From Dorea sp. AF36-15AT (GTDB lineage: Bacteria; Bacillota; Clostridia; Lachnospirales; Lachnospiraceae): 64,000 bases of DNA. The stretch lies in the NCBI RefSeq assembly GCF_003477705.1, contig NZ_QUDV01000003.1:247473-311472 (forward strand). Direction: 5' to 3'. The number at the start of each line of letters is the position of its first letter. Position 1 is the first letter of the stretch. The position numbers and the translations under genes were made by a program. Below the pieces are notes generated by a model that saw only the letters and a list, made by a program, of their open reading frames with translations, made no database searches and was not told the DNA's origin. Shown here piece after piece: positions 1,723-43,917 of this stretch.

Positions 1723-1771
1723 ATGTAGTATTTTGAACAAATATAAACACCATATATAGTATAAGCCTGAA

Positions 1772-1800
1772 TTGACATGAGGAATATCTTGTGCTAGTAT
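1772..1800 (+). promoter_or_regulatory. Sigma-A promoter of the DNA-processing operon
   Basis: TTGACA (1772-1777), a 17-nt spacer and TAGTAT (1795-1800). The downstream half of the spacer and the -10 (ATCTTGTGCTAGTAT) closely match two other promoters on the minus strand at 26048-26076 and 41227-41255, which suggests a shared regulator or common descent. Confidence 0.8.
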
Positions 1801-1869
1801 ACTGATATAGTTTATTTTATGCACACCCTTTTTGGGGAGTTTCGGGATTCATAAGAATCTCCAAACTTA

Positions 1870-2027
1870 CAGGAAACAGCAGGAGCTGATTCCTGGCATA
1901 AGTAGTTTATGTTTGTAGTGAGTGTCACGGTATGCCTTTTTTGGCTGCGTGGCACTTTTGTTTTTTCAGGAAGAAACCAGACTTTTAAGAATGAACAGAG
2001 AAAAGACTCTCTTTTCATTCTTTTTTT
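1870..2027 (+). promoter_or_regulatory. Attenuator leader: hairpin, conserved box and two tandem terminators
   Basis: In order: a hairpin CAGGAA..TTCCTG with an inner CAGC/GCTG stem and AGGA loop (1870-1895); the box GTAGTTTATGTTTG (1902-1915); terminator 1, GTGTCACG/CGTGGCAC with an inner GCC/GGC and a T-rich run (1922-1966); terminator 2, GAATGA/TCATTC followed by seven T (1989-2027). A UUCG-capped hairpin follows at about 2066-2082. The layout is repeated before the ligase gene (minus, about 26 kb) and the SSB gene (minus, about 41 kb). Transcription of the operon should therefore depend on readthrough. A trans-acting antiterminator is an inference. Confidence 0.7.
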
Positions 2028-2120: not shown

Positions 2121-3260
2121 ATGAATGAAGCAAGAGTGTATGCAGATGGATTTGAGAGATCCTTTGCAGAAGTAAAAGATCTGCTGGAGTTTCTGGCAGA
2201 GAGAGGAAGAAATGCCAAATGGATCAGAAAGCCAACGAATACGTTACGGCTGGCACCACTGGAAAAGGAGGCTCAAAATCTGGATGCGGCAGATGCATCC
2301 ATGGAAGAAATTTTGGAGGATACAGAGAAGAATACGCAGCTTGTACTGAAAATGAGAGGAGAATCCTATCCGGTACGTGACTGTGCCATCCGCACCATTT
2401 TAAGCCGCGCAGGTGTCAATGGAGACGGGCTTCGCAAGCTGGATAAGGCAACATATGCGAAGGTAGTCAATTACTGCCTGCGGGTTGCAAAAGGGGATGC
2501 CCTGATTAAGATTGCGGACGGAAAGGTTTCCGCAGTACATGGCGGGGATAAACATGATTATTGCATCCTTGATATGAAAGCCATGTTTGAGACAACCTGC
2601 GAATATCTGAATCTGAATTTCAAAGGCAGTGTTTACATGGAGGGCTCTGGTATCTATGACCATTCCATTGTATCTGCCATGTGGAAGCTCGGAGGAAGTC
2701 AGGAACTTCTGGATACTTACCGAAAAGCACTGGATGCACACGGAATGGATGAGAAGATCCTGTCACCGGCACTTCGTTTTACCACATCTGACGTGGCAGC
2801 GAGCGGTGCAAATCTGTATCCGATGCTTTTGACAGACGGACCAAACGGCGTTATCAGTCTGGGAAGTCCAATCAAGCTGGCTCACGATAAAGGGGCAACG
2901 ATTCTGGACTTCCGGAAAAATCTGGAGCAGGTATGCGCCCGCTATGTGGATGCGATGAAGAATCTTACTCAGCTTATGGACATTGAGATCCGTAATCCGG
3001 TGAACTGCCTGAAGCTGCTGATGAAGGAACTTGGCATTAAACAGAAGATCCGGAATGAGGTGGTGGAGCTATTTGTATCCCAGAACGGGGAAGGTGCCTG
3101 TACGGCACATGATCTTTATTATGCCATGAATGAAGCCTCCTTTTTTGCAGCCTGTGAAGGAATGTCCGGACAGGGCATCCTGAAGCTGGAGGAGGATATT
3201 ACGAAGGCGCTTATAAAAGACTGGAAAAAATATGACGTTTATGGAGCAGTCAAATGTTAG
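2121..3260 (+). CDS. Conserved ICE protein of unknown function (tentatively DUF932-like)
   Basis: A 379-residue soluble protein, first gene of the 2.1-10.2 kb operon, with AAAGGTGG 9-14 nt before the ATG. No catalytic motif was identified. Recognisable stretches are VHGGDKHDYCILDMKAMFET in the middle and a helical C-terminal half. The size, position before a YqaJ nuclease, and general look resemble the DUF932-type proteins of phages and plasmids, but this is tentative. It overlaps nothing and is followed within 11 nt by the YqaJ gene, so a linked role in DNA processing or in protecting incoming DNA is plausible. Confidence 0.6.
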   Translation: MNEARVYADGFERSFAEVKDLLEFLAERGRNAKWIRKPTNTLRLAPLEKEAQNLDAADASMEEILEDTEKNTQLVLKMRGESYPVRDCAIRTILSRAGVNGDGLRKLDKATYAKVVNYCLRVAKGDALIKIADGKVSAVHGGDKHDYCILDMKAMFETTCEYLNLNFKGSVYMEGSGIYDHSIVSAMWKLGGSQELLDTYRKALDAHGMDEKILSPALRFTTSDVAASGANLYPMLLTDGPNGVISLGSPIKLAHDKGATILDFRKNLEQVCARYVDAMKNLTQLMDIEIRNPVNCLKLLMKELGIKQKIRNEVVELFVSQNGEGACTAHDLYYAMNEASFFAACEGMSGQGILKLEEDITKALIKDWKKYDVYGAVKC

Positions 3261-3271
3261 GAGGAATTGGA

Positions 3272-4312
3272 ATGAATAACAAAGCAGAGTATACACCGGA
3301 AAAGGTTGTGGATATCAGTAACCTGTCAAGAGAAGACTGGTTGGAATACCGCAAAAAAGGAATCGGCGGCAGTGATGTAGCGGCAATCATGGGGATCTCT
3401 CCATTTGCCACTATCCGGGATCTGTTTTACAACAAAACAGGTGTGCAGCCGGTCATTCAGGAGGAAGAGGAAAGCAACTGGGTTGCCAAGGAAGTCGGAC
3501 ACCGGCTGGAAGATCTGGTGGCAGAAATCTTTTCCAAAAAGACCGGACTGGAAGTATTTCCGGTACGTGTCATGTTCCGGCATCCATTATATCCGTTCAT
3601 GCTTGCAGATGTGGATTTTTTTGTTCGTATGCCGGATGGGACATTTGCGATTCTGGAATGTAAAACCTGCAATTATAATGCGAAAGATAAGTGGGCTGAT
3701 GAGGGTATTCCAGCTCATTATGTGCTGCAGGTAAGGCATTATCTGTCTGTGATGAATATGCAGAAAGCCTTTATCGCATGCCTGTATGGAAATAACGAGA
3801 ATGAGTTTGTGTATCGCACCATTGAGCGTGATCTGATTGAGGAAGAAGACATCATTGATCAGGAAACGTATTTCTGGCAGGAACATGTATTGAAAAATGT
3901 AGTACCGCCGCATAACGGGAATTCCGATCTGGTTCTGGCAAATATCCGTAATTATGGTGGTTTTGCAGACAAATCTATTCCGGAAATTGTGCTTTCCGGT
4001 CTGGAATCAAAAAATCTTGAGAAGTATCTTACCCTTTCGGAGGAAAAGTCACAGTTGGAAAAACGGAAAAAGGAAATCGAAGCAGAACAGCGGGCAATCA
4101 GTGTTCCTTTTGTGGAACAGCTGGGGCAGGGCTGCAAGGCAGTGCTGGAGGACGGTACGAACCGTTACCGTATTACCTATAATCCGACCAGACGTACTTC
4201 GGTTGGGAAAGACCAGATGGAGAAGCTGAAAAACCAGCATCCGGATATCTATGAGGAATATACAAAAACAACGGAGAGCCGTACTTTCCGAATTAAGAAG
4301 GAGGCGGCGTAA
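3272..4312 (+). CDS. YqaJ-family viral-type recombinase (PD-(D/E)XK exonuclease)
   Basis: A 346-residue nuclease of the YqaJ/lambda-exonuclease fold. The family signature WLEYRKKGIGGSDVAAIMGI is near residue 25, the metal-binding core is LADVDFF ... AILECKT (about residues 110-135), and the QVRHYL motif follows. A coiled segment is near residues 255-290. The start at 3272 has GGAGG 8 nt upstream; an earlier in-frame ATG lacks one. Such enzymes resect double-stranded ends for single-strand annealing recombination. Here the gene is in an operon with a helicase and a candidate annealing protein. Its TAA overlaps the next small ATG. Confidence 0.9.
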   Translation: MNNKAEYTPEKVVDISNLSREDWLEYRKKGIGGSDVAAIMGISPFATIRDLFYNKTGVQPVIQEEEESNWVAKEVGHRLEDLVAEIFSKKTGLEVFPVRVMFRHPLYPFMLADVDFFVRMPDGTFAILECKTCNYNAKDKWADEGIPAHYVLQVRHYLSVMNMQKAFIACLYGNNENEFVYRTIERDLIEEEDIIDQETYFWQEHVLKNVVPPHNGNSDLVLANIRNYGGFADKSIPEIVLSGLESKNLEKYLTLSEEKSQLEKRKKEIEAEQRAISVPFVEQLGQGCKAVLEDGTNRYRITYNPTRRTSVGKDQMEKLKNQHPDIYEEYTKTTESRTFRIKKEAA

Positions 4313-23797: not shown

Positions 23798-25792
23798 TTA
23801 TGCAATCATCTCCAAAAATTCAGCTTCTGTAAGAATTGGAATACCAAGGCTCTGGGCTTTTGCCAGTTTGCTGCCGGCTTTTTCCCCGCAGATCAGGTAA
23901 TCGGTTTTCTTTGTTACAGAGCTGCCAGGTTTGGCACCAAGCTCCAGAATCTTATCGTTGATACCGTCTCTGGTAAAATGCTCCAGTTTCCCTGTTGCTA
24001 CGATGGTACATCCTGTAAATTTGTTTTCTTTTGTCATAATGGTCTCTTCCTTTCTTTGTTCAAATGTGAATTCGTTCTGTAAGTTTTTCCATAAATCAAG
24101 ATTTGCTTCATCTGCAAACCAGGAATGGATGTTGTGATTTAAGATTTCGCCAAAATCCTCTAACTGAGTGAAGTCGTAATCTCCGACAGCCGCCTGTTCA
24201 AATGCAGTTAAATTTCCGGAAAATACGGTGTCCAGAATCCGGCTTTTGGTTCTGCCGATCATAGGAATATCCATGGAAACCAGATAGCGGACAAAGCTGG
24301 TCCTCCGGCTGGCGTTGATGGATTCCCACAAGCGGTCGAAAGATTTCTCACCATATCCGTCCAGTGCCACAATATCTTCCCGGTGTTCCTCCAGATGATA
24401 GATGTCCTGAAAAGAGTGCAGATAGCCCAGATTCAGGAATTTTTCTAAAGTGGCTTCTGACAGTCCTTCGATGTTCATTGCCTTCTTGCTGGCAAAATGG
24501 ACAAACCTTCTTGTGATCTGGCTGTCGCACTGCGGATTATCACAATGCAGAGTTTCTACGGTGCGACCGTCGCTGGTCTTACGGCTGTAGGTTCTGGTTT
24601 TGTAACCACAGCAAGGGCAGACCGGAGGCGTGATGTCGGTATACCTTCCACGATCCAGATTATCCTCTATATGTGGGATGATCATGTTTCGTTTGGAAAC
24701 AAGAATCCGGCATCCGGGTACAAGCTCCAGATTTTTGATAAAGGTCAGATTATGAAGGGAAGCTCTGGAAACATCACAGCCGTCAATCTCCACGGTATCG
24801 AAGATGCCGACCGGAGCAATCTCTCCGAATCTGGTCGGTGTCCATTCAATTTCACGCAAGAAAGTTTCGTAGGTATCATCCTCAAACTTATAGGCGAGGC
24901 CGTCCTTATAGTGGTGTCCGGTTTTTCCGCAGCTTTTGGAGTAGCTGAGACTGTCAAAAATCATGACAATGCCATCGATAGGAAGATGTAAATTTGCTGC
25001 TGTGGATACCAATTCCTGAATGAATTTCTCCGCATATTCTTTTGAAAGTCCGGTTCCTGAAATTGAGAAAAACGGGCAGTAACCAAAGCCCAGGTGTGTT
25101 AAACCTTCTAATTTGCAGGCTCTGCTGTCCGGGAAGGGAACATCCTCCATTCCTTCTAATACATTGAACGGAAGAAAGCGAACACAACGTCCGATACAGT
25201 TCTTCGGATCAAGACTTCGTACTGATCCGGAAGCAAAATTACGTCCGTTTTTATAAGGTTTTCCATTTCCATCACGCAGAGTATCTTTCAGACGTTCAAA
25301 ATCATTGGTTGGTATAAAAGACTCACCGGTAATGACCAGACGTTCTTTGTGTGGAATGGTAAGCGGTACATTTAAAAATGCCGGGATATTGTGTGTAATA
25401 TCTTCCCCCACTTCACCATCTCCACGGGTAGAAGCCTGAATCAGTCTGCCATCTTCGTAAATGAGTTTGGTAGTCAAACCGTCCAGTTTCAGCATAAAGA
25501 GAACTTCCTGTCCTTTCATGAAATCTAAAAGCTCTGAAATCAGTTTTGTTTTCTCAAGCGAGAGCAGTGGAATCGGATGGGTGACTTTGGCAAGTTCACT
25601 GACCGGATAATATCCAACCGTCTGTGTCGGAGAATTTGACAGGATGAAACCAGTCTGTTCCTCCAGTTCCTTCAGTTCGTCAAAGAGTCGGTCATACTCG
25701 GCATCAGATACCAGAGGGGCATCCTGATTGTAGTAGGCATGACGGTATTCATTGAGTTGTTTTACAAGATTCTTAATTCTTTTGACTGACAT
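23798..25792 (-). CDS. ligA: NAD-dependent DNA ligase, full length, element-encoded
   Basis: A 664-residue enzyme, close to the usual 670. Domain Ia is at the N terminus (YYNQDAPLVSDAEYDRLFDE); the adenylation motif KLDG has catalytic Lys102 (MLKLDGLTTKL), followed by ASTRGDGEVGEDIT. The OB fold follows, then a four-Cys zinc finger (CPCCGYKT ... CDNPQCDSQ), HhH repeats and a C-terminal BRCT domain (GCTIVATGKLEHFTRDGI). ATG 25792 follows AAAGGAG. It seals nicks using NAD. The host must have its own copy, so this one is an extra ligase under element control, behind an attenuator leader. Confidence 0.92.
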   Translation of the reverse strand: MSVKRIKNLVKQLNEYRHAYYNQDAPLVSDAEYDRLFDELKELEEQTGFILSNSPTQTVGYYPVSELAKVTHPIPLLSLEKTKLISELLDFMKGQEVLFMLKLDGLTTKLIYEDGRLIQASTRGDGEVGEDITHNIPAFLNVPLTIPHKERLVITGESFIPTNDFERLKDTLRDGNGKPYKNGRNFASGSVRSLDPKNCIGRCVRFLPFNVLEGMEDVPFPDSRACKLEGLTHLGFGYCPFFSISGTGLSKEYAEKFIQELVSTAANLHLPIDGIVMIFDSLSYSKSCGKTGHHYKDGLAYKFEDDTYETFLREIEWTPTRFGEIAPVGIFDTVEIDGCDVSRASLHNLTFIKNLELVPGCRILVSKRNMIIPHIEDNLDRGRYTDITPPVCPCCGYKTRTYSRKTSDGRTVETLHCDNPQCDSQITRRFVHFASKKAMNIEGLSEATLEKFLNLGYLHSFQDIYHLEEHREDIVALDGYGEKSFDRLWESINASRRTSFVRYLVSMDIPMIGRTKSRILDTVFSGNLTAFEQAAVGDYDFTQLEDFGEILNHNIHSWFADEANLDLWKNLQNEFTFEQRKEETIMTKENKFTGCTIVATGKLEHFTRDGINDKILELGAKPGSSVTKKTDYLICGEKAGSKLAKAQSLGIPILTEAEFLEMIA

Positions 25793-25870
25793 AGAGTCTC
25801 CTTTCTTTTGTGGCGTGCCAGTTCCGGAATCATTTGTTTCCGTAATCCTCCTTTCCCTGCGTTCAGGCAT

Positions 25871-26029
25871 AAAAAAAGAGAATGACGCTTATGTTCATTC
25901 TCAAAATAGATGCAGTTTCCTGCAAAATAAAAAAAGCCAGAAGTCCCTGCTGCTTGTTGGGCATAGGAAAACTCCTGACTACGTTTCAAACCTAAACTGC
26001 GTGTGATAAATCCTTTCCGGATTGACACA
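25871..26029 (-). promoter_or_regulatory. Attenuator leader of the ligase operon
   Basis: In transcription order: hairpin TGTG..CACA with inner AATCC/GGATT (26029-26002); box GCAGTTTAGGTTTG (26000-25987); terminator 1, AGTCAGGAG/CTTCTGGCT then TTTTTTTATTTT (25980-25925); terminator 2, GAGAATGA/TCATTCTC then TTTTTTT (25902-25871). Terminator 2 shares GAATGAACA with terminator 2 of the leader at 1870-2027. The start codon of ligA comes 79 nt later. Confidence 0.7.
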
Positions 26030-26047
26030 AATAATTGATATAAGAAC

Positions 26048-26076
26048 AGTATAACACTAGATGTAGTATATGTCAA
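26048..26076 (-). promoter_or_regulatory. Sigma-A promoter of the ligase-NADAR operon
   Basis: On the minus strand TTGACA (26071-26076), 17-nt spacer and TATACT (26048-26053). The spacer end and -10 (ATCTAGTGTTATACT) match the promoters at 1772 and 41255. Confidence 0.8.
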
Positions 26077-26675: not shown

Positions 26676-26740
26676 AGTGTTTCTCTTGTTGTTTATTTAT
26701 TGTTTTTTTCGTTGTATACTGATAAAACGAGGTGATAAAA

Positions 26741-27415
26741 GTGGCATATAGAATTTTGATCGTGGATGATGACATCGAATTATTAAAGATGTTAAAGAAC
26801 TATTTTGAAATCAAACGATATGATGTAATGATGGCAGAAGATGGCACAGATGCTTTGGAAAAAATCCATAAGAAACCGGATATTATCTTGCTGGACATCA
26901 ATATGCCTAAAATAGACGGATTAGAAGTATGCAGACGTATCCGGGGCAAAGTAACTTGTCCCATTATCTTCCTGACGGCAAAAGTGGAGGAGCAGGACAG
27001 GGTAAACGGGCTTTTATCCGGTGGGGATGACTATATACTGAAGCCGTTTAGTCTGAAAGAACTGGATGCTCGTATTATTGCACATTTGAAGCGTGAGGAG
27101 CGTCATAAAGGGAAGTCTGAATACAGATTCCACGGAGACCTCAGTATTGATTATGGAGCAAAGAGGGTTCAGATCGGTGAAAATGATTTGGAGCTTACGA
27201 AGCTGGAATATGCAATCATTGAGTTTTTGTCCATGAATCCAGGACAGGTTTTTGACAGGGAGCGGATATACGAAAAGGTGTGTGGTTATGATGCGGAAGG
27301 TGACAGCCGTGTTGTTACGGAACTGATCCGGAGAGTGAGAAAGAAACTGGCGGAATATACGCAGACAGAATACATTGAGACAGTATGGGGGATGGGGTAT
27401 CGATGGAAAAGATAA
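26741..27415 (+). CDS. OmpR-family response regulator
   Basis: A 224-residue regulator. Receiver domain at residues 1-115: acidic pocket VDDD, phosphoacceptor Asp in IILLDINMP, conserved Thr in FLTAK and Lys in LKPF. The winged helix is at about 130-224 (LELTKLEYAIIEFLSMNPGQ ... ETVWGMGYRWKR). Start GTG 26741 follows GAGGTGAT. It overlaps the kinase gene by 13 nt. It probably controls the ABC transporter downstream. Confidence 0.92.
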   Translation: MAYRILIVDDDIELLKMLKNYFEIKRYDVMMAEDGTDALEKIHKKPDIILLDINMPKIDGLEVCRRIRGKVTCPIIFLTAKVEEQDRVNGLLSGGDDYILKPFSLKELDARIIAHLKREERHKGKSEYRFHGDLSIDYGAKRVQIGENDLELTKLEYAIIEFLSMNPGQVFDRERIYEKVCGYDAEGDSRVVTELIRRVRKKLAEYTQTEYIETVWGMGYRWKR

Positions 27416-28605
27416 GAAATTTATCCTTGAAAAAGACAATGGTTTTATATACGATACTCAGCTTGATTGTCACTTTTTTTCTTTCTGTGTCAATTATTGA
27501 GATTGCCGGGCAGATACAGGAGGAGGTCTGGTGGAAGTACGTGGATCAGGACGAGTATTATCAGGCAATGAATGACCGCAATGAAAATTTTGAGGTAGTG
27601 GTACCGAGACCGAATCAGAGTAAAATGAGCAGAATGGACTGGCATATTTCAGAAACCTGTGATTTCCTTCAGACGTACGGAGTATTGCTTTTTTCTTTTG
27701 CCGGATGTGGAATTGCGGTCAGCCTGTTTTACAAAAATAAATTAAAGAGACCGATTCAGGAACTGAAGATGGCATCACAGATGATTGCGGAGGAAGATCT
27801 GGATTTTCATATGGCTTATGAGAACGAGGACGAGATGGGGATGCTGTGCAGGGAATTTGAAAGGATGCGTGGGCAGTTGGAAGAAAATAACCGTAGACTT
27901 TGGCAGATGATCGAAGATGAGCGGGTACTGCGTGCAGCGATTGCCCATGATATCCGCTCGCCGCTTGCAATCATGCGGGGATATCAGGAAATGCTTTTGG
28001 AATTTGTTCCGGAAGATATGCTTGATCAAGAGAAAATGATGGAGATGTTAAGGGGCGGTATGCTTCAGATTGAACGGATGAACCATTTTATTGATAGTAT
28101 GAGGAAGATGACGAAATTGGAAGAACGGGAATTAAACTGTTCCGTGGTAGATATCCGGCAGTTGATAAACCAGATAGAAGCTCTGGCAGAAGTCGTGGTG
28201 GAAAAATCAGAAAAGAATTTTACAGTGACGACAGTGAGAGAATCTGAAATACTGACTGCGGATGAGGAAATCATCATGGAAGTAGCGGATAATCTGTTGG
28301 CTAACGCATTCCGCTATGCCAATCAGGAAGTTAGGCTGAAGCTGACAGTGACACCCCAATATCTGAAAATGAGTATCAGGGATGACGGAATTGGATTTCA
28401 GGAAAATATCGACAGGGTGACACAGGCGTTTTATCATGAGAATCCACAGGATGACTTAAAGCATTTTGGAATGGGTATGTATATCAGCCGTATCTACTGC
28501 GAACGGCATGGTGGGAAACTGCTGATAAAAAATGTAGCAGATGGCGGTGCGGAAGTTGAGGCAGTGTTTAAAAATTATGTATTAGAAGAACAACAGCAGA
28601 AATAA
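27403..28605 (+). CDS. Sensor histidine kinase
   Basis: A 400-residue kinase. Membrane segments lie at about residues 11-34 and 88-110 with a short extracellular loop of about 55 residues, then HAMP (KRPIQELKMASQMIAEEDLD), dimerisation/phosphoacceptor box AIAHDIRSPLAIM, N box EVADNLLANAFRYA, and G box RDDGIGF ... GMGMYISRIYC. It pairs with the overlapping response regulator. The small loop and the ABC neighbours fit a peptide-antibiotic sensor, which is an inference. Confidence 0.9.
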   Translation: MEKIRNLSLKKTMVLYTILSLIVTFFLSVSIIEIAGQIQEEVWWKYVDQDEYYQAMNDRNENFEVVVPRPNQSKMSRMDWHISETCDFLQTYGVLLFSFAGCGIAVSLFYKNKLKRPIQELKMASQMIAEEDLDFHMAYENEDEMGMLCREFERMRGQLEENNRRLWQMIEDERVLRAAIAHDIRSPLAIMRGYQEMLLEFVPEDMLDQEKMMEMLRGGMLQIERMNHFIDSMRKMTKLEERELNCSVVDIRQLINQIEALAEVVVEKSEKNFTVTTVRESEILTADEEIIMEVADNLLANAFRYANQEVRLKLTVTPQYLKMSIRDDGIGFQENIDRVTQAFYHENPQDDLKHFGMGMYISRIYCERHGGKLLIKNVADGGAEVEAVFKNYVLEEQQQK

Positions 28606-28675
28606 ATGGCTGTTGTTTTTTTGTTGTGATTTGTAGGCTATGCTGTTTGTAGAAAAAAGAAAGGCGGGATGACTT

Positions 28676-29740
28676 ATGAAAGCAATCATAAAAAGGAATC
28701 TGAAAAATTATCTTAAAAATCCGATATTCTGGATCGGTTTGATTGTTGTTTTAATCAGTATGTACCAGACACTTGCACCCTATCTGTCCATTCATTACGT
28801 GAAGTCGGATGAAACCTTCAGGAAGGTAAAAATGGCCTCCGATGGGGATGTTATGGAGGGATGTATTCCGGCAACACCGGATAAGGAGAGAGAACTGTGG
28901 GAGAAAGAGATTGTAAAGATACTTCAGGACACAGAGAATGGGTTTGGCATGTCGGAAGTAGAGGCGGAGGCAGTGATATCTGAGATGAAACAGATGAAGA
29001 TTACGGAGGCGTGTCAGTATCTGAAAACGGAATACCACTTTAATGGTGCCAATTATGTGTATGAGGACGTTTCATGGTATCAGGGAAGCCCGGAGGAAGT
29101 CAACCGGTATATCAGAGAAAATCTTGAGAAACATCCATTCTCCTATTATTTCGGAAGAAAATTTACAGATTTTGCAAGCCTGCATATGGCATTCTTTGCA
29201 ACGGTTCTGCTGGCGTTTTTATTTTTCCAGGATATGAGGAAAAATACTTATGAATTGCTGCACACCAAACCGATGACGGCTTTTCAATATATTGCCGGGA
29301 AAATAAGCAGTGGATTTCTCATTATGACGGCGGCACTGGTCATTATGAATATCGTATTTATCATTTTGTGTTACGCCACGGCAGTAAAATCAGGATTTGC
29401 TATGAACATACTGGATTTTGTTCAGAATTCGATCCTGTATGTCCTGCCGAACATCCTGATGATCTGCTGTGTGTATGCGGTTACAGCGCTGCTGTTTAAG
29501 AATCCGCTTCCAGCGGTTCCGGCGCTGGTTCTTTATATCATTTATTCTAATATGCTGACATGGGATAGCAAAGGACAGTGTCATGCAAGACCATTCTCTA
29601 TTATGGTTCGATTTCCGGGGAATTTTTTTGAAACGGAATTGCCACATCAGGTATATCTCAATCAACTGCTTCTTGTGGCAGCATCCATACTGCTCATGTT
29701 TATAGCGGTGTGGATGTGGAAAAGGAGGAGAGTATATTGA
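28676..29740 (+). CDS. ABC transporter permease
   Basis: A 354-residue membrane protein: one membrane segment near residue 15-32, an extracellular domain of about 130 residues rich in charged residues, then about five segments (residues 165-350). This is the layout of ABC-2-type permeases of export or immunity systems. AAAGGCGG is the ribosome site. It overlaps the next permease gene by 4 nt. Confidence 0.8.
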   Translation: MKAIIKRNLKNYLKNPIFWIGLIVVLISMYQTLAPYLSIHYVKSDETFRKVKMASDGDVMEGCIPATPDKERELWEKEIVKILQDTENGFGMSEVEAEAVISEMKQMKITEACQYLKTEYHFNGANYVYEDVSWYQGSPEEVNRYIRENLEKHPFSYYFGRKFTDFASLHMAFFATVLLAFLFFQDMRKNTYELLHTKPMTAFQYIAGKISSGFLIMTAALVIMNIVFIILCYATAVKSGFAMNILDFVQNSILYVLPNILMICCVYAVTALLFKNPLPAVPALVLYIIYSNMLTWDSKGQCHARPFSIMVRFPGNFFETELPHQVYLNQLLLVAASILLMFIAVWMWKRRRVY

Positions 29741-30393
29741 AGAAAGAAGTAAAAATATGTATGCCATATTATAAAATTGCATATTCAATCGCTTTTGTTG
29801 TGATATTGAGTGCAATCCAGCCTGTTGTATATGCGAATGAAATCGGGCAGGCAGTAGAAAGAGCTGTTTCGCTTCTGGCAGTCGTTTTCTGTGCAGATAC
29901 TTATCTGGTGGAAGTGCAGAGCAAACGCTCGGAAGTATTCTGCCTTTATAATCTAAAAAAGCAGGCAGGGGTAGTTTATAAAAGACTATTTGTGCAGGTA
30001 GCTTATCTGATTGGAATCAGTTTGTTGGCATATGGACTCTTTTATTGGCAGAAACCGGTGAATCTGACAGAAGAATTAGATGGCGGTGCCTTGTTTGGAA
30101 TTTATTGTATTGCGATTCCCGGAACTGTTTTGTTTTGGAGTGTGCTTTCCGTAACTGTCAGCAATCTGGTTCGAAACAGATGGATTGGTATGGGTGTCGT
30201 GCTGCTTTTCTGGTTTTTCTCTATTTCCGGAAAGGCAACTCAGTTTTTGAAAAACTGGGGACCATTTTCCTACGGAACTTGTGATTTCGGTAAGCTGACA
30301 GAGTGGAGATGGCTTGGCGGGAAGGTGCTGTGCGTGGTATTTGCGGGGATGATGCTTGCATTTGTTCCTAAGATATTAAAGAAGAGAGGGTAA
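29737..30393 (+). CDS. Second ABC transporter membrane subunit
   Basis: A 218-residue membrane protein with about six hydrophobic segments and no large loop. Start TTG 29737 overlaps the stop of the previous gene (ATTGA) and has AAAGGAGGAG 7 nt upstream. Gene order and size fit the second membrane subunit of the transporter. Confidence 0.7.
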   Translation: MKKEVKICMPYYKIAYSIAFVVILSAIQPVVYANEIGQAVERAVSLLAVVFCADTYLVEVQSKRSEVFCLYNLKKQAGVVYKRLFVQVAYLIGISLLAYGLFYWQKPVNLTEELDGGALFGIYCIAIPGTVLFWSVLSVTVSNLVRNRWIGMGVVLLFWFFSISGKATQFLKNWGPFSYGTCDFGKLTEWRWLGGKVLCVVFAGMMLAFVPKILKKRG

Positions 30394-30397
30394 GATT

Positions 30398-31270
30398 ATG
30401 AGTATAAGAATAGACGATTTAACAGTAACATTTAAAAATGGAGTGACAGCGGTAGATCATGTGGATCTGGAAATCCCACATGGGATATTTGGTCTGTTAG
30501 GTGAAAATGGTGCAGGAAAAACAACGTTGATGCGGGTGCTTACAACGGTGCTTGCACCCACAAGTGGAAAAGTTCTGTTAGATGGTACGCTATATTGCGA
30601 AGCAAATTACGAAAAGATACAGAAAAAGATTGGGTATCTGCCACAGGAAATTGATCTGTATCCGTCTTTGACTGTTCGAGAATGTCTGGAGTATATGGGA
30701 GATCTGGCTGGAATTGAGAAAAGAGAAAGCAAGAAAAGGATTGATTACTATCTGGAGAAGACCAGTCTTGCAGACCATCAGAAAAAGAAAATGCGGCAGC
30801 TTTCAGGTGGAATGAAGCGAAGAGTTGGATTAGTGCAGGCATTACTCCATGAGCCGGATTTTTTAATTGTGGATGAACCAACAACAGGGCTCGATCCGGA
30901 GGAACGCATCCGTATCCGTAATTTACTGGTAGATTTTGCAGAAGAACGCACCGTATTATTTTCAACGCATGTGGTGGAGGATCTGATGGCAACCTGTAAT
31001 CAGCTTGCGGTTATGAAAAAAGGTAGATTCCTTTATACAGGAACAATGAGGGAATTATTGAATAAGGCAAGAGGGCATGTATGGGAATGCTGTACAGAGG
31101 ACGAAAGCCTTGCAAGAGAATTAGAAAGAAAATATCATATTTCCAGTAAGCAGTATACGGAGGAAGGAATTAGATTAAGACTGTTAGGGGAGAATATGCC
31201 GTCAGAAAGTGGATGTATAGCTTGTGACGTAACTTTGGAAGATGCATATATCTATGTAACCAATCGATAA
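30398..31270 (+). CDS. ABC transporter ATP-binding protein
   Basis: A 290-residue ATPase. Walker A GENGAGKTTLM (about residue 38), Q-loop in YLPQEID, signature LSGGMKRRVG (about 135), Walker B FLIVDEPTTGLD, and switch His in STHVVED. The C-terminal 70 residues are a substrate-specific extension. It is the last gene of the RR-HK-permease-permease-ATPase unit, probably for export of or immunity to a peptide antibiotic. Confidence 0.9.
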   Translation: MSIRIDDLTVTFKNGVTAVDHVDLEIPHGIFGLLGENGAGKTTLMRVLTTVLAPTSGKVLLDGTLYCEANYEKIQKKIGYLPQEIDLYPSLTVRECLEYMGDLAGIEKRESKKRIDYYLEKTSLADHQKKKMRQLSGGMKRRVGLVQALLHEPDFLIVDEPTTGLDPEERIRIRNLLVDFAEERTVLFSTHVVEDLMATCNQLAVMKKGRFLYTGTMRELLNKARGHVWECCTEDESLARELERKYHISSKQYTEEGIRLRLLGENMPSESGCIACDVTLEDAYIYVTNR

Positions 31271-35208: not shown

Positions 35209-37326
35209 TTATTTGAGATGCTGTTTGACAAGCTGTGCCATATTCTTTGGAAGCTCTTCCAGTTTCGTGATATCCAGGAATCCGTCCTTGTAAATCCTGC
35301 GGATATTTTCCTTATCGTCACCAATGGCAGCCGCAAACAGGATGACATCCCGTTTTTCGTATTCTTTCTTGATGCCCCGCAGATCTGCCTCTGCTTCCGT
35401 TCCGCTGTAGCCGTAATCGGCTGGCTGACCGTCAGAAATCAGGATCAGCAGCTTCTGAAGCTCCGGGCGTGTGCACAAATGCTCTGCTACGAAGCGGAGA
35501 GCTGCGCCGTCCCGGTTCCCGTTGCGGTCGCACATATCCATCAGCCGGTAACAGTCCTCATTGTCCACAGAATCAAATTCTGCATAGGAGTAAAGAGCAA
35601 CGCCGCCTGCATCCGTGGAATGCCCGTAAATGGTGATAGGGATACCGAGGCTTTTACAGAAATCATAAAGGACAATGGCAGTCTTTCTTGCATGTGTCAT
35701 CCGGTCACCCCAACCCATCGAACCACTCTCGTCAATCAGGAGGGCAACAGCCAGACGTTTTTCCTCTCCTGGAAGTCTGGTTCTGGTAAAGATGGTTCCG
35801 TCTGTCTTATAGAGAGCATGGGAGTCCAGACGTTTTCCAAACAGGAGATTCTTCTGCTTTCCGCCTTGCTGTTCTTCTTTCAAAAGCGGCAGGATGGTGC
35901 TTTGCAGCTTTTTGGAAGCCCGCAGGAGCGGGGTAGCAACTGTCTGGTATTCATTCTTCAGGTAATCGGAAACACTGGTCAGGCGATGGATGGTAACATG
36001 GATGCCTGCATGGGCATTGCCGTAATGAATATCATTGGCTGTTTTCTGCAGTTCCTCGGTCAGTTCCGTCTGACAGTCTTCCTGCACCTTTTCTGCAGCC
36101 ACATCGTTCAAGATCCGGAACAGATCCTCTGCAGCATGCTCATAGCCGCTGCCCTGATACTGACTGACATAAGTGACGCCGGGGTTGTTTTCATCCAGAA
36201 TGGTATTGGTCTTTGTAAGAGCGATGCGCCCGCCTTCTTCCGAAAGCACCTGTTTGGCTTCCTCTATAGCATCCTCTTTGGTACGTGGACCGGAAGGAGC
36301 ATTGCCCTCATCATTCCCGCTTCCTTTTGGGGAAGCTGGTTTGATATTCTTTGGAATGGCACCGCTTTTTCCGGTCGGAAGAGGAGCGCCGCTGCTGACT
36401 TCATCCCCTAGAAGATCTTCCAGAGCATCGGCAGCGGAATCCTCGCCATGCATTTCCAATTCCTCCCGTGTTTTTTCGATGAGCGGCTGGATATAGTTCC
36501 AGGTCAGGGCTAAGAGCGCATTGGAAACCAGCATCCGGTCAGTGCCTTTTTCCGATTCCATTGCCGTATCCAGAAGATCGGTACAATCGGAAATGGTATC
36601 CAGATAATCCCCCTGATAGCCGGTGGGATTGTTGATGTTTCCGGTCCGGCAATAGGAAAGGATCAGGTTGGCAATGATGGAAAATGGCTGGTATTCTTTG
36701 TCAATTTGTTCCTGTATGGAAGGAATCTGTTCGGACATACGCAGGTTATTGAGTTCAATCCCCTGTCGGAAGGTGCCGTGGAATTCCTCACACATACGGT
36801 CTTCAATATGGATGTCTTCCAGAATGTTTTGAAAAGTTGCGGCGCATCGTGCCAGTGTCAGGCATCCGGCTTTGTCCTTTTCTTCTAACACTTCTTTGAT
36901 CTCCTCCAGTGCTGTCTGATAAGCTGGAAGGGATAGCTCCGGCTCCTTCGGATAGAAGGAACCGTTTTCCAGACTCCTCAGATGAACAGCGTGGGCTGTG
37001 AAATCAGAATAGAGTAAGTGCCCCACTTCATGCCCGGTGAGCCCTGTCAGGCTCTGGGAACGTAAGAAACGGGTGGGGAAAGACTGGGTGATCGGGTTCG
37101 CTGCGTTGAGATGTACCTTATAATTGTCGGTATATGCAACGCCTGCCTGTTCGGAAATGTCCCAGTCCAGCAGTACCTGCAGTCCATACCGGTAACGTCC
37201 GGTAACGGCTCTGGCAAGGGAGGTCTGGTACTTCTGATAGGCAGCGGAGAGGAATAACTCCTCATCCGCAATGGAATCCTCTTTTGCCCGGATTAGTTTC
37301 TTTAAATTTCTTTGGCTGTGATTCAC
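35209..37326 (-). CDS. VWA-domain protein with N-terminal HExxH metallopeptidase-like motif
   Basis: A 705-residue protein. Near residue 99 it has GLTGHEVGHLLYSDF, a canonical HExxH zinc motif. The middle (about 300-370) is low-complexity and acidic. The C-terminal VWA domain (about 520-705) carries an intact MIDAS site DESGS (LLIDESGSMGWGDRM) with later Thr/Asp positions (ISDGQPADYG). The combination resembles DUF2201-type metallopeptidase/VWA proteins that work with a MoxR-like ATPase; a MoxR-like gene is two genes upstream. Its role on an ICE is not known. It overlaps the XRE gene by 4 nt. Confidence 0.85.
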   Translation of the reverse strand: MNHSQRNLKKLIRAKEDSIADEELFLSAAYQKYQTSLARAVTGRYRYGLQVLLDWDISEQAGVAYTDNYKVHLNAANPITQSFPTRFLRSQSLTGLTGHEVGHLLYSDFTAHAVHLRSLENGSFYPKEPELSLPAYQTALEEIKEVLEEKDKAGCLTLARCAATFQNILEDIHIEDRMCEEFHGTFRQGIELNNLRMSEQIPSIQEQIDKEYQPFSIIANLILSYCRTGNINNPTGYQGDYLDTISDCTDLLDTAMESEKGTDRMLVSNALLALTWNYIQPLIEKTREELEMHGEDSAADALEDLLGDEVSSGAPLPTGKSGAIPKNIKPASPKGSGNDEGNAPSGPRTKEDAIEEAKQVLSEEGGRIALTKTNTILDENNPGVTYVSQYQGSGYEHAAEDLFRILNDVAAEKVQEDCQTELTEELQKTANDIHYGNAHAGIHVTIHRLTSVSDYLKNEYQTVATPLLRASKKLQSTILPLLKEEQQGGKQKNLLFGKRLDSHALYKTDGTIFTRTRLPGEEKRLAVALLIDESGSMGWGDRMTHARKTAIVLYDFCKSLGIPITIYGHSTDAGGVALYSYAEFDSVDNEDCYRLMDMCDRNGNRDGAALRFVAEHLCTRPELQKLLILISDGQPADYGYSGTEAEADLRGIKKEYEKRDVILFAAAIGDDKENIRRIYKDGFLDITKLEELPKNMAQLVKQHLK

Positions 37327-37589
37327 GTGATATTCTTCCTTTCTTTTCTTAGATTTTTTGTCAGCAGTTCCTCCATCGTGCAGCCGTAATACACAGCAAG
37401 GCGAAGGACGGCATAAGCCATCGGGGAGGAGTTTGCATTTTCATAATTCATAATGGTTTTCGGGGGAAGATTTAAGATTCTGGCAACTGCCTTTTGTGAT
37501 AACTTCGGTGTTTTGGCTTGCCGGAGATAAGACAGATTATCTGCCAGATGCTTTCGGATCTGGGCTTCTGTGAGTGCTGCTTTTCTCAT
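37323..37589 (-). CDS. XRE-family HTH protein inside the MoxR-VWA operon
   Basis: An 88-residue protein with a Cro/CI HTH (LSQKAVARILNLPPKTIMNY, ENANSSPMAYAVLRLAVYYG). It lies between the ATPase and VWA genes and overlaps the latter, so it may autoregulate the operon or act with the complex. Confidence 0.8.
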   Translation of the reverse strand: MRKAALTEAQIRKHLADNLSYLRQAKTPKLSQKAVARILNLPPKTIMNYENANSSPMAYAVLRLAVYYGCTMEELLTKNLRKERKNIT

Positions 37590-40343: not shown

Positions 40344-41045
40344 TTAATAGGGCAACTGGGATGCCATCTGTTCCGGCACATTTTGAAAGCCGTCAGTTGG
40401 CTGACTGCCCGGCATACCTCCGTAATTTGGCATTCCGGTATAACTGCCCTGCGGCGGGTAGCTGCTCTGTGGCTGACCGGTTCCGTTTGGCGGAGCCTGA
40501 TACTGTCCGCCATTTGCAGGAGGCGTGTAGGCACCGTTAGCAGGAGCCATTCCCTGCTGTGGATAGCCGCCAGGCATTGCCTGATTCTGGTAGCTGCCAT
40601 TGGGATTTCCCTGCATTGGGTAGCTGCCATTGCCGGCTGCACCGGACGTTGCCGCACCACCATTCGGCTGGCTGTTCTGGTTTGCACCCGGATGTCCGGT
40701 ATTGCTGTCAGAACGGTTGGATGGTACAAAGTGCCAGTCCTTGACATTGATCCTCGGACCGGCATTTGCCTGCCCCGCATTCTTTCCTTTCTGATAAATG
40801 AACGGATGAAGCTCCAGATCACCATAGATCATCAGCCCGGTTCCTTTCTTTACGCCTGCTTTTGCTAAGCGTTCTGCAAGGAACTTGTTAAAATAGCACT
40901 GATAGTAAATGGTTTCTTCCTTTCCATCCTGGCCTCGCTGTGAAACTGCAATGTCCAGAGAAACATATTCCGTACCGGAATTTTTTCCTTGCTGCATCTC
41001 AGGATCTCTTGTGGCCCTCCCTAAAATTGTTAAAATTGCTGACAT
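40344..41045 (-). CDS. ssb: Single-stranded DNA-binding protein with long disordered tail
   Basis: A 233-residue protein. OB fold at residues 1-115 (MSAILTILGRATRDPEMQQG, YVSLDIAVSQRGQDGKEETI, YYQCYFNKFLAERLAKAGVK). From about 120 it is a Gly/Pro/Gln/Asn-rich tail ending ASQLPY, not the usual acidic DDDLPF tip, so contacts with host repair proteins may differ. It probably coats the transferred strand. The gene is first in the operon, behind an attenuator leader. Confidence 0.88.
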   Translation of the reverse strand: MSAILTILGRATRDPEMQQGKNSGTEYVSLDIAVSQRGQDGKEETIYYQCYFNKFLAERLAKAGVKKGTGLMIYGDLELHPFIYQKGKNAGQANAGPRINVKDWHFVPSNRSDSNTGHPGANQNSQPNGGAATSGAAGNGSYPMQGNPNGSYQNQAMPGGYPQQGMAPANGAYTPPANGGQYQAPPNGTGQPQSSYPPQGSYTGMPNYGGMPGSQPTDGFQNVPEQMASQLPY

Positions 41046-41091: not shown

Positions 41092-41186
41092 AAAAAAAGT
41101 GCCATTATAGCACCGTATAAAACGGCAGTATAATGACACGATTTTCCAAACTTAAACTGCATATGCTTCTGGATGAATGGTCCAGA
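41092..41186 (-). promoter_or_regulatory. Attenuator leader of the SSB operon
   Basis: In transcription order: hairpin TCTGGA..TCCAGA (41186-41168); box GCAGTTTAAGTTTG (41160-41147); terminator with the 11-bp stem GTGTCATTATA/TATAATGGCAC and TTTTTTT (41139-41092). The box lies 7 nt before the terminator stem, as in the leaders at 1870 and 26029. The terminator arm GTGTCA is shared with the first. Confidence 0.72.
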
Positions 41187-41226
41187 CTCCCATGACGGGA
41201 CAGCACAAAAACTTAAATACAAGATT

Positions 41227-41255
41227 ATATTAACACAAGATATAGCATATGTCAA
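41227..41255 (-). promoter_or_regulatory. Sigma-A promoter of the SSB operon
   Basis: On the minus strand TTGACA (41250-41255), 17-nt spacer and TAATAT (41227-41232). The spacer end ATCTTGTGTTA matches the promoters at 1772 and 26076. TATAGCATATGT, overlapping the -35 (41241-41252), is repeated at 41272-41283 and may be an operator. Confidence 0.8.
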
Positions 41256-41315
41256 AAGAATTAGAACTATATATAGCATATGTAGACGAGGTGGAAGGAT
41301 AATATCAAAAGAATT

Positions 41316-41345: not shown

Positions 41346-41379
41346 ATTGTTTAAATCGGAAAATGGAAGGATGAGAAAA

Positions 41380-42069
41380 ATGGAGCAGAAAAACAGAATT
41401 CTGATTGTAGAAGACGATACGGATATCAATAATCTTTTATATACGGCATTACAGAAAGCAGGGTATGAGACGGTACAGGCTTTTTCCGGGACGGAAGCGA
41501 GGATGCTGTTCCAGATGGATAAGGCGGGCTTTTCTTTGATTCTATTGGATCTGATGCTTCCGGGAATTTCAGGAGAAGAGGTGCTTGCCCAGATTCGGAA
41601 ACAGGGCAATACGCCGGTTATTGTCCTGACAGCCAAAGACGGATTGGATGAAAAAATCGGGCTTCTTACCAGTGGGGCAGATGATTACATTACAAAACCG
41701 TTTGAGATACAGGAGGTGCTTGCCCGGATTCAGGTTCAGCTCCGCCATATGCAGCAGGAGCCGGAACATAAAAGCGTGTCATATAAAAACCTGGAACTGG
41801 ACCGTGAGCGCTTTGAAGTCCGGATTGCCGGAGTGCTGCTTCCCAAAATTACAAAGCAGGAATTTGCAATTCTGGAGCTTTTACTGGAGCATCCGAAACA
41901 GGTCTTCAGCAAAGAAGAGATTTTTGAATATGCGTGGGATGAACACTATATGGGAGAGACAAAGACACTGGATGTACATATCAGCAATATCCGGAAAAAG
42001 ATAAAAGCAGTAACGCAGGAGGAATATATTGATACCGTATGGGGAATCGGCTACCGTCTGCATTCTTAA
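41380..42069 (+). CDS. OmpR-family response regulator
   Basis: A 229-residue regulator starting MEQKNRILIVEDDTDINNLL. Phosphoacceptor Asp in LILLDLMLPG, Thr in VLTAKDG, Lys in TKPFEI; winged helix in the last 95 residues (ITKQEFAILELLLEHPKQVF ... VWGIGYRLHS). The start has GGAAGGA 8 nt upstream; earlier in-frame ATGs lack spacing. It begins an RR-ATPase-permease-kinase unit typical of lantibiotic or bacitracin-type resistance. Confidence 0.92.
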   Translation: MEQKNRILIVEDDTDINNLLYTALQKAGYETVQAFSGTEARMLFQMDKAGFSLILLDLMLPGISGEEVLAQIRKQGNTPVIVLTAKDGLDEKIGLLTSGADDYITKPFEIQEVLARIQVQLRHMQQEPEHKSVSYKNLELDRERFEVRIAGVLLPKITKQEFAILELLLEHPKQVFSKEEIFEYAWDEHYMGETKTLDVHISNIRKKIKAVTQEEYIDTVWGIGYRLHS

Positions 42070-42155
42070 TCTTTACTCTTTTTTTACTATTTATTTGCGT
42101 TTGATTAGGATTTATCCGATATGATAACAGCAGATAAGAAAAGGAGATGAAAGCA

Positions 42156-43073
42156 TTGAGTGAATTGTTATTAAGTACAAATGGATTGACGAAGCAGTAT
42201 GGTCATCATAAGGCAGTGGATAAAGTAAACCTTCACATAAAAAAGGGTGCTATCTATGGATTTATCGGACGGAACGGTGCGGGAAAGACGACTTGCCTGA
42301 AGATGATCAGTGGACTTGCAAGACCGACAGCCGGAGAGATTGAGATGTTCGGGTGTAAAGGAAAAGAACTGGAGAGGATTCGTTCTCGTGTGGGGTGTCT
42401 GATTGAAGCACCGGGGCTGTATGGCAACATGAATGCATATACAAACCTGAAAATAAAATGTGAATTGTTTGGTATTCGGAAAAAGGGATACATCGAAGAT
42501 ATCTTAGAGACGGTCGGACTGGAAGGTGTCGGAAAGAAAAAAACGAAACATTTTTCCCTTGGAATGAAGCAGCGTCTCGGAATCGGGCTGGCACTGGTCG
42601 GGGAGCCGGATCTCCTGGTCCTTGATGAACCGATCAATGGGCTTGATCCCCAGGGAATTGCAGAGGTGCGTGATACCATACAGAGACTGCGAGATGAACG
42701 GAATATGACGATTTTGATATCCAGTCATATTTTAGAGGAATTATCTAAGATTGCAACGGATTATGGAATTATCCATAATGGAAGTCTTCTGCAGGAGCTG
42801 ACAAGCGAAGAACTGATGAAACGCTGCAGTGAACGGATTGAAATAGAGTTAATCCATCCGGAGCAGGCAGTCCCGATTCTGGACAGAATGGGATTTACCA
42901 ACTATCAGGTTACAGATAAGAGCCATATCCATATATTTGAACGATTGAATGAAAGCGCCAATGTCAATATGGAACTGGCAAAAGCAGGAATTTTGGTCAA
43001 TGGAATTTCCATTACCAGTGAAGAACTGGAAACCTATTTCTTGAATCTGACAGGAGGGAATCAAAATGCTTAA
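42156..43073 (+). CDS. ABC transporter ATPase (BcrA/lantibiotic immunity type)
   Basis: A 305-residue ATPase. Walker A GRNGAGKTTCLK, signature FSLGMKQRLGIG (the Gly-Met-Lys variant common in BcrA-type ATPases), Walker B LLVLDEPINGLD, switch His in SSHILEE. Start TTG 42156 has AAAGGAG at proper distance; the in-frame ATG at 42147 is too close to it. It overlaps the permease gene by 8 nt. Confidence 0.88.
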   Translation: MSELLLSTNGLTKQYGHHKAVDKVNLHIKKGAIYGFIGRNGAGKTTCLKMISGLARPTAGEIEMFGCKGKELERIRSRVGCLIEAPGLYGNMNAYTNLKIKCELFGIRKKGYIEDILETVGLEGVGKKKTKHFSLGMKQRLGIGLALVGEPDLLVLDEPINGLDPQGIAEVRDTIQRLRDERNMTILISSHILEELSKIATDYGIIHNGSLLQELTSEELMKRCSERIEIELIHPEQAVPILDRMGFTNYQVTDKSHIHIFERLNESANVNMELAKAGILVNGISITSEELETYFLNLTGGNQNA

Positions 43074-43917
43074 TATGATAAAAATGGATCTGTACCGGAT
43101 GGTCCGGACAAAAAGTATGTATGTGGTATGGATTGTGATGGCGGCAGCTATATTCTTCTCCACATCCATGTCGAAACTGGATATTGATACGATGAACAAG
43201 GAAGCGGAACAACAGCAGACAGAAAGCATTGCAGAAACAGTGAAACCAGAAACCATCAATATGGGAATGTCCGTATTCCTGCCGACACAGCCGGGAGAAA
43301 AAGTAACGGTCTTTGATCAGGTATATGCAAACCTGCAGGCGAAGTTTGTGGCGTTGTTTCTGGTGATTTTTACAGTGCTGTTTTCCAGTGCAGATATAGG
43401 AAGCGGTTATATTAAAAATATCGGCGGGCAGGTAAGGAGCCGGAGAAACCTGATCTTTTCCAAAGCTTCCGTGTTGTTTGTGTATACGACTGTTACCATG
43501 CTGCTTTATTTCATCATTCAGATTATTGCACAGCAGATGTACTTCGGATATCTGGAGTGGGGGAATGGAAGCGAGTTGCTGAGATACTTTGGTATTCAGA
43601 TTTTGCTTCATTATGCACTGGTACTAATCAGTATGGCGATTGCGGTGGTTTTGAACAGCAACGTGTTCAGCATGACGATTGTTATCTGCCTGTGCATGAA
43701 TACCATGATTGTCTTATACGGAGTGATCAATCATTTGATCCAGAAGGCAGGTGTGGAGAATTTCCAGATTTTGAAATATACAGTGACAGGAAAGATTGCA
43801 CTTTTATCCATGTCACCGACCAATAAGGAATGCCTGACGGCAGTTGTGATTGCGGCGGCGTTCGGAATCGTGGTTACATTACTGACAGCATGGGTATTCA
43901 GAAAGAGAGATATCTAA
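43066..43917 (+). CDS. ABC transporter permease (ABC-2 type)
   Basis: A 283-residue membrane protein: first segment at about residues 18-35, an extracellular loop of about 60 residues, then five segments. The size and order fit single-permease immunity transporters. The stop is followed directly by the kinase ATG. Confidence 0.82.
   Translation: MLNMIKMDLYRMVRTKSMYVVWIVMAAAIFFSTSMSKLDIDTMNKEAEQQQTESIAETVKPETINMGMSVFLPTQPGEKVTVFDQVYANLQAKFVALFLVIFTVLFSSADIGSGYIKNIGGQVRSRRNLIFSKASVLFVYTTVTMLLYFIIQIIAQQMYFGYLEWGNGSELLRYFGIQILLHYALVLISMAIAVVLNSNVFSMTIVICLCMNTMIVLYGVINHLIQKAGVENFQILKYTVTGKIALLSMSPTNKECLTAVVIAAAFGIVVTLLTAWVFRKRDI

Follow-up and report, generated by a model that had tools for sequence, protein, structure and literature searches.

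Conjugative elements of the Lachnospiraceae shuttle genes among common gut genera, and how the DNA-processing genes of such elements are silenced and jointly activated has not, to our knowledge, been worked out. The stretch of Dorea sp. AF36-15AT DNA analysed here (64,000 nucleotides, referred to as the window) raises this question because a box, GYAGTTTANGTTTG, is common to three of its leaders (starting at 1772 on the plus strand and at 26076 and 41255 on the minus strand), which stand ahead of an orf379-YqaJ-RecD2, a LigA and an SSB operon, respectively. Do these leaders form one regulatory device, and at which level would it act?

Three operons of the window share a leader

Leader 1 and its operon contain the following features:
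1750..1761, plus strand: upstream palindrome-type putative operator CCATATATAGTA, 22 bp 5' of the leader 1 -35
1772..1800, plus strand: leader 1 promoter, TTGACA-17-TAGTAT, extended -10
1818..1900, plus strand: leader 1 RNA domain closed by P1 (arms 1818-1822 and 1896-1900), with P2-P4 within
1902..1915, plus strand: leader 1 box GTAGTTTATGTTTG
1922..1959, plus strand: leader 1 terminator T1 with first U run (hairpin part 1922-1955)
about 1987..2027, plus strand: leader 1 terminator T2 with U tract
2121..3260, plus strand: orf379, first gene after leader 1
3254..4312, plus strand: YqaJ-domain protein gene, second gene after leader 1, followed by a RecD2-like helicase

Leader 2 spans 26076..25871 (minus strand), with the ligA operon behind it:
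26048..26076, minus strand: leader 2 promoter, TTGACA-17-TATACT
26002..26029, minus strand: leader 2 P1-P2 hairpin
25987..26000, minus strand: leader 2 box GCAGTTTAGGTTTG
25929..25980, minus strand: leader 2 terminator T1 with U tract
25871..25902, minus strand: leader 2 terminator T2
23798..25792, minus strand: ligA (NAD-dependent DNA ligase), start set by eye at 25792 after AAAGGAG

Leader 3 spans 41255..41092 (minus strand), with the SSB operon behind it:
41265..41276, minus strand: upstream palindrome-type putative operator CTATATATAGTT, 21 bp 5' of the leader 3 -35
41227..41255, minus strand: leader 3 promoter, TTGACA-17-TAATAT
41162..41207, minus strand: leader 3 RNA domain closed by P1, P1-P3
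41147..41160, minus strand: leader 3 box GCAGTTTAAGTTTG
41092..41139, minus strand: leader 3 terminator T1 with U tract
40344..41045, minus strand: SSB gene, first after leader 3
37323..37589, minus strand: HTH_3 protein gene (88 aa), same strand, behind ssb; by inference a candidate operator binder

The original prediction had placed a promoter, a box, a 6-nt gap and two terminators in leader 1, and all of these were found in that order and at those positions, as was the same order of parts, with a box-to-terminator gap of 6-7 nt, ahead of the ligase and SSB operons. The ssb leader of the window departs from the leader 1 plan in having one terminator, not two, and no feature of leader 1 speaks for its having been called the founding copy. 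A hairpin does precede the box as described, but its stem is P1, which closes a multi-arm domain whose arms differ by leader (P1-P4 in leader 1, P1-P3 in the ssb leader and P1-P2 in the ligA leader). The three leaders face both directions, making a single-stranded-DNA promoter unlikely for all of them, and we rejected it as a common explanation.

Three side observations concern the genes around the leaders. No Pfam or NCBIfam match was found for orf379. The mechanical ligA ORF begins at 25870, in the U tract of T2, and the ATG at 25792 after AAAGGAG looks like the real start (25790-25870, minus strand). Directly upstream of the ligA and ssb leaders, and reading away from them, are response-regulator genes (26732-31270 and 41347-44814, plus strand), the one at the ssb leader with an ABC transporter gene behind it; both regions look like cargo inserted at the two sites.

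The box, and only in part the promoter, sets the leaders apart

With two mismatches allowed, the box occurs five times in the window against a shuffle mean of 2.9, which is not unusual, so that exact matches are more telling. Of these the nearest genome (G001, 3.2 Mb) has three, each within the same 40 kb of this element, and the reversed box pattern had no match (0) in the whole of that genome. The promoter pattern was found three times where 0.13 matches were expected, a comparison that is circular since the pattern was derived from these three leaders; recurrence in other genomes is non-circular evidence. The promoter spacer motif ATATCTTGTG occurred at the correct spacing in 20 of 397 genomes of the family and at a spacing one base too long in 2 of 397 (reversed control columns, 0), and matches in other genomes also stood ahead of apparent rplU, rpoB and ribonucleotide reductase genes, as judged by eye from translated starts. 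Since some matches precede apparent host genes, we regard the promoter as a strong host-type promoter and discarded the shared promoter, taken alone, as evidence for a regulon. Exact copies of the box in G001 are confined to the element; the promoter is partly of a host type with an extended -10 and is not specific to the element.

These promoter data bear on a reading by shared descent only, in which the operons took a strong promoter and a terminator along when they moved and the box has no regulatory role. It would account for the same spacer motif in strong host-type promoters and for the clear relatedness by descent within each leader type, yet it sits badly with a box and a box-to-T1 spacing that stay fixed while stems and arms vary between leader types and distant elements, and we give it almost no credence.

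Other elements carry the leader before ssb, ligA and yqaJ

In one scan of named genomes, element-type ssb genes (identified by protein similarity) carried the leader at 15 of 15 loci, all of which we take to be from Lachnospiraceae by record title or by genus. The leader was also present at relatives with an SSB identity of only 36-38% (L010, L011), and related elements in genomes G029, G105 and G036 harbour four leaders each: an orf379-YqaJ-type, an ssb-type and a ligA-type leader, plus another that is ligA-like. The gene directly after this fourth leader, as read in G029 and G105, encodes a protein of about 280-300 aa without assignment. The examined loci contained 112 distinct promoter-pattern matches, 47 of them with a box-like string; after two of the 47 (L078, L151) had been dropped as chance, 45 leaders were kept (13 yqaJ-type, 20 ssb-type and 12 ligA-type), a set that is a biased sample because it was collected via the promoter or the ssb gene.

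We also used R1, a covariance model of the box and T1 built from 21 sequences without promoter, operator or gene information. R1 scored the three leaders of the window at 58-68 bits, the next match (17 bits) lying on the opposite strand of one terminator, and in 394 Lachnospiraceae genomes it returned 61 matches in 28 genomes (E up to 0.01), often several per element. Flanks were examined for 29 of the 61 matches, and 24 of the 29 have an upstream promoter although R1 knows no promoter (these include L205, which is cut by a contig end, L206 and L207, with one extra spacer base, and L215, with a weak -35; calls made partly by eye). Two matches in G262 (L226:120-370 and L229:150-410, both plus strand) are leader remnants that retain part of P2-P3, the box and part of T1 and have no promoter. 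Three further matches with E near 0.01 (L230-L232) are probably false and are the sole matches of G055, G146 and G143; since G262 holds remnants only and these three genomes hold probable false matches only, we count 24 of the 28 genomes as convincing. R1 marked 22 of 22 ssb loci of element type, a number of which had served to train it, and 0 of 22 loci with a distant, housekeeping-like ssb, and viral contigs yielded one weak ssb relative at which R1 was negative and the leader absent.

Deeper families carry a box variant, GCACACGCNGTTAAGTTTGTA, and their leaders precede YqaJ genes (by Pfam, 3 of 3 tested), ligA (one gene tested, by Pfam) and, by eye, orf379-like genes. They also precede ssb-like genes; of three tested, one passed the Pfam cut-off and two fell short of it. 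The covariance-model search of other elements thus recovers the leader in other Lachnospiraceae genomes and, consistent with the proposal of a leader common to DNA-processing operons, before ssb, ligA and yqaJ; we consider a shared leader ahead of these operons well supported. In a sample of 291 genomes from the class, R1 matched G001 alone, apart from a weak match (E 4.6e-4) in G483, which belongs to another family; this latter match (L235:1240-1800, plus strand) comes with a terminator and is preceded by a promoter-like TTGACA, and is possibly a distant relative.

No family of Rfam 15 was found at the leaders of the window and of ten loci, and a relaxed search (E up to 10) returned one patAB match of 26 bits, against a gathering score of 92, on the opposite strand over T2. 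Searches of the open-access literature brought up no paper that describes the leader, which may nonetheless be in print.

The leaders are also found in other settings. In deep families, a further operon bears the leader (L167:2700-3074, minus strand; L211:190-600, plus strand; L214:2400-2650, minus strand), and its first long ORF (about 257-411 aa, with EYNxLTKRLLxEGY) gave no Pfam match. At L048:3317-3600 (plus strand), a decayed ssb leader retains promoter and palindrome while its box is broken, ~6.5 kb from an intact copy on the same contig. The SSB proteins of records from Blautia glucerasea, Eubacterium ramulus and [Ruminococcus] faecis (L040, L042, L043) and of the window are 99-100% identical, and this near-identity across genera suggests a recent spread of the element between them.

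The closing stem and terminator covary around a near-invariant box

In the cross-type alignment the most conserved stretch is the box (GTTTA.G.TTG), which is almost unchanged across leader types, and the box-to-T1 gap of 6-7 nt and the order of parts are the same in all leaders examined. The covariation that had been expected of a shared RNA was found in T1, in the ssb-type structure and in P1. Across leader types, 96.8% of T1 cells are paired, with 34 two-sided changes versus 13.3 in shuffles and a covariation score of 0.527 versus 0.206 (sd 0.026), a score reached in 0 of 500 shuffles. The whole ssb-type structure has 96.4% of its cells paired and 26 two-sided cells (11.4 in shuffles). P1 could be scored in 66 of 69 leaders of all types: its pairs 1 and 3 are invariant, pair 2 is G-C in 46, A-U in 14, G-U in 4 and broken in 2, pair 4 is broken in 2, and pair 5 is C-G in 35, U-G in 10, U-A in 8 and broken in 13. 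The closing stem P1 thus covaries at two pairs, in counts that are not independent events because the sequences are related. The yqaJ-type and ligA-type structures barely exceed their shuffles (83.4% versus 82.2% and 89.2% versus 87.6% paired, with the score reached by 52 and 18 of 500 shuffles, respectively). Parts, order, spacing, recurrence, covariation and association with operons are established at the level of the sequence.

The arms diverge between copies within one element, only P1, the box and T1 being kept, and this divergence argues against the terminated leader itself being the product, a family of small RNAs of about 110-160 nt that the element would make to act in trans. Each leader does have its own promoter and terminator, as such a family would need, but leaders whose downstream DNA could be read stand directly before operons, and we consider this reading very unlikely.

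Second terminators were detected in 12 of 12 ligA leaders (with a stem other than the visible one reported in five of these rows), 7 of 13 yqaJ, 6 of 17 ssb and 3 of 24 deep-family leaders, the last count coming from a strict scan that misses long loops; they suggest processive antitermination in some operons without requiring it in all.

Several ways of opening the terminator by RNA pairing or translation found no general support. The 3' strand of P1 can pair with the 5' arm of T1 in some families, but by eye no such pairing exists in the ligA leaders or in the L006/L050 ssb class, in which one T1 pair has been exchanged while P1 stays the same; a hairpin of this kind is unsupported as an antiterminator shared by every leader. 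A pairing of the transcript 5' end with the box (P0) involves 96-97% of cells in the ssb and yqaJ types without two-sided change within a type, and its duplex energies were no better than those of shuffled 5' ends (mean p 0.29, 0.47 and 0.51; the L009 row of this test is faulty, with a 5' segment of only 1 nt). Since 5'-end pairing, the only pairing proposed for the box, did not beat its shuffled controls, we take it that the box stays unpaired and that something recognises it. A leader-peptide attenuator found no backing either, a short ORF having been flagged in 4 of 43 leaders and in two of those (L042, L129) spuriously, at position 0.

A phased palindrome suggests control at the DNA level

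A feature that had not been noted before is the palindrome CTATATATAG, located 20-22 or 31 bp before the -35 in most leader copies. With up to two mismatches it occurs in 33 of 43 leaders versus 9.8% of shuffles, at 20-22 bp in 27 of the 33, at 31 bp, one helical turn further out, in five, and at 46 bp in one (L045). Of the promoters that fit this pattern but lack a box match, 64 in number, four have it (shuffles, 2%), and three of these four are those of the decayed leader L048, a leader of a second class described below (L092) and the deep-family leader L167. In the R1 set, 18 of the 24 matches with a promoter have it at 20-22 bp with up to two mismatches, a count without a shuffle control. 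Leaders 1 and 3 of the window have the palindrome; its ligA leader does not, the best upstream candidate there having five mismatches. The 88-aa HTH_3 protein encoded behind ssb, which recurs at 59-67% identity in all of the related element sets compared (5 of 5), is a candidate palindrome binder.

The earlier reading over-weighted the promoter and missed a likely upstream DNA operator that could coordinate the operons alone. In its pure form such DNA-level coordination would have an element-encoded protein, either repressing or activating, bind promoter and palindrome in the manner of EGeRS2 of p576, and would leave the leader as an insulating, constant damper. The phased palindrome and the conserved HTH_3 gene fit this proposal, which nevertheless leaves the near-invariant box and the covarying closing stem unexplained and meets a ligA leader in the window that lacks the palindrome; on balance we think it quite unlikely.

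A coordinated attenuator cassette as the favoured reading

The reading that we favour, with a probability of roughly 55%, is a coordinated attenuator cassette placed before separate DNA-processing operons, whose default state is off and which antitermination at the P1-box domain would open. RNA polymerase would start at a strong vegetative-type promoter, preceded in most copies by the phased palindromic operator, and the nascent RNA would fold into the P1-closed domain that presents the box. The intrinsic terminator 6-7 nt past the box, in many leaders followed by a second one, would halt transcription by default, until antitermination recognising the P1-box domain, via an element-encoded factor or through the RNA touching RNA polymerase directly, allows readthrough. 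Passage of the terminators would then activate the operons jointly while the element transfers or establishes itself, with DNA-level control acting above the RNA attenuator. We infer default termination, conditional readthrough, the factor and its timing, and place the opening at the box domain because of the fixed box-to-T1 gap, the covarying closing stem, the apparently unpaired, near-invariant box and the terminators before the genes. Against the attenuator cassette stand the yqaJ-type and ligA-type structures that hardly exceed shuffles, the scarcity of second terminators in deep families and the lack of one in the window ssb leader, and the capacity of the operator to coordinate the operons with the leader as a constant damper.

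Known antitermination proteins did not provide the factor. Each of six leader-bearing genomes (6 of 6) has exactly one NusG-family match, and we rejected a NusG paralogue of the RfaH/LoaP type. Host Nus factors acting through boxA were rejected as well: 12 rrn leaders of G001, G105 and G036 show a conserved sequence of CCTTGATAA type, presumably boxA, that by eye is unlike the box.

The single NusG gene is in keeping with a cis-acting RNA of the put kind, in which the P1-box domain would itself modify RNA polymerase without a dedicated protein, T1 and later terminators would always be passed, and the on-off choice would fall to the upstream operator found in 33 of 43 leaders. This reading overlaps with the attenuator cassette, but the RNA would not be the switch. 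A repeated structured RNA right after each promoter, as in putL of HK022, speaks for it; a processive element, however, needs no strict box-to-T1 spacing, and many leaders have no second terminator. We judge it unlikely.

The leader combines features of known systems

In lambda nut sites and rrn boxB-boxA leaders, a stem is followed by a short conserved single-stranded box, and lambda has several copies. The leaders described here resemble both in having a stem and then a box, but the host rrn leader is, by eye, unlike this box.

Conjugative plasmids of the pLS20 family also place copies of one regulatory sequence before several of their operons, as establishment gene regulatory sequences EGeRS1 and EGeRS2 (PMC8708921). 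In the sections of that source covered here, EGeRS1 is highly structured and blocks readthrough, with copies of 420-750 bp that are 62-95% identical and have no sigma-A promoter (PMC8708921), whereas our leaders have a sigma-A-type promoter, measure about 110-170 nt and, between copies of the same element, have little in common except promoter, P1, box and T1, and so differ from EGeRS1 as described there. EGeRS2 has a strong promoter with operators (TTATCCC repeats) beside the -35, and the sections covered mention no attenuator (PMC8708921). The strong promoter with a putative operator beside the -35 recurs here, but the operator sequence differs and the window ligA leader has none; the EGeRS2 repressor, as described there, is an RHH protein inside the regulon; the candidate here is the HTH_3 gene behind ssb.

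As far as its description in PMC11658703 was covered, canT of Tn916 is one element of ~450 nt (452 bp) that acts on several terminators after circularisation. It is likewise a conjugative-element RNA linked to passage of terminators before DNA-processing genes, and its description sets it apart from the three to four short copies, one per operon, seen here. The conAn system of pLS20 has an RNA part, conAn2, at the start of the conjugation operon with terminators downstream, and together with the protein ConAn1 serves one operon of >30 kb (PMC8955417, parts covered); the RNA component at the operon start with terminators behind it is shared, and by that description the system differs from ours in serving one long operon rather than several. 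In HK022, an E. coli phage, the same put RNA (~70 nt, two stem-loops) lies behind the promoters and before the terminators of two early operons (PMC9378689, parts covered). A repeated structured RNA behind promoters is found here too, with a P1-closed domain and an unpaired box instead of two stem-loops, and antitermination here is only predicted. By the features tested, the leader is a mixture of EGeRS, canT, conAn and put features and a member of none of them, canT and conAn having been judged from their descriptions.

A possible second class of leader stands before the same kinds of operon

Four sequences compared by eye (L090 13337, L091 13685, L092 6708 and L111 1529, all minus strand; contigs C8 and C15 of G029, and G263) form a second class, which has the same promoter type, no box, and a hairpin UUCCGG..CCGG plus a terminator. 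L091 stands ahead of ssb-RecD2 and L092, which also has the palindrome, ahead of an orf379-like gene. If borne out, class II would mean that different RNAs occur at the same operons in separate element families, implying that the leader has a function of its own.

We tentatively entertain a broader possibility, that the leaders are a new family of antitermination RNAs: a nut- or put-like site in three to four copies per element, one per operon, that would turn on SSB, the YqaJ set and the ligase together, with the class II element family using its own RNA at the same operons and promoter type. If true, this would be a multi-operon counterpart to the antitermination of single long conjugation operons by conAn and canT. 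The short, findable RNA signature tags operons and offers a handle for regulon annotation, a search for the regulator and tests of antitermination in anaerobes.

The first large ORF after the class II leader of L090 (L090:12514-12954, minus strand) encodes a bacterial RNase A-like (CdiA-CT) domain protein.
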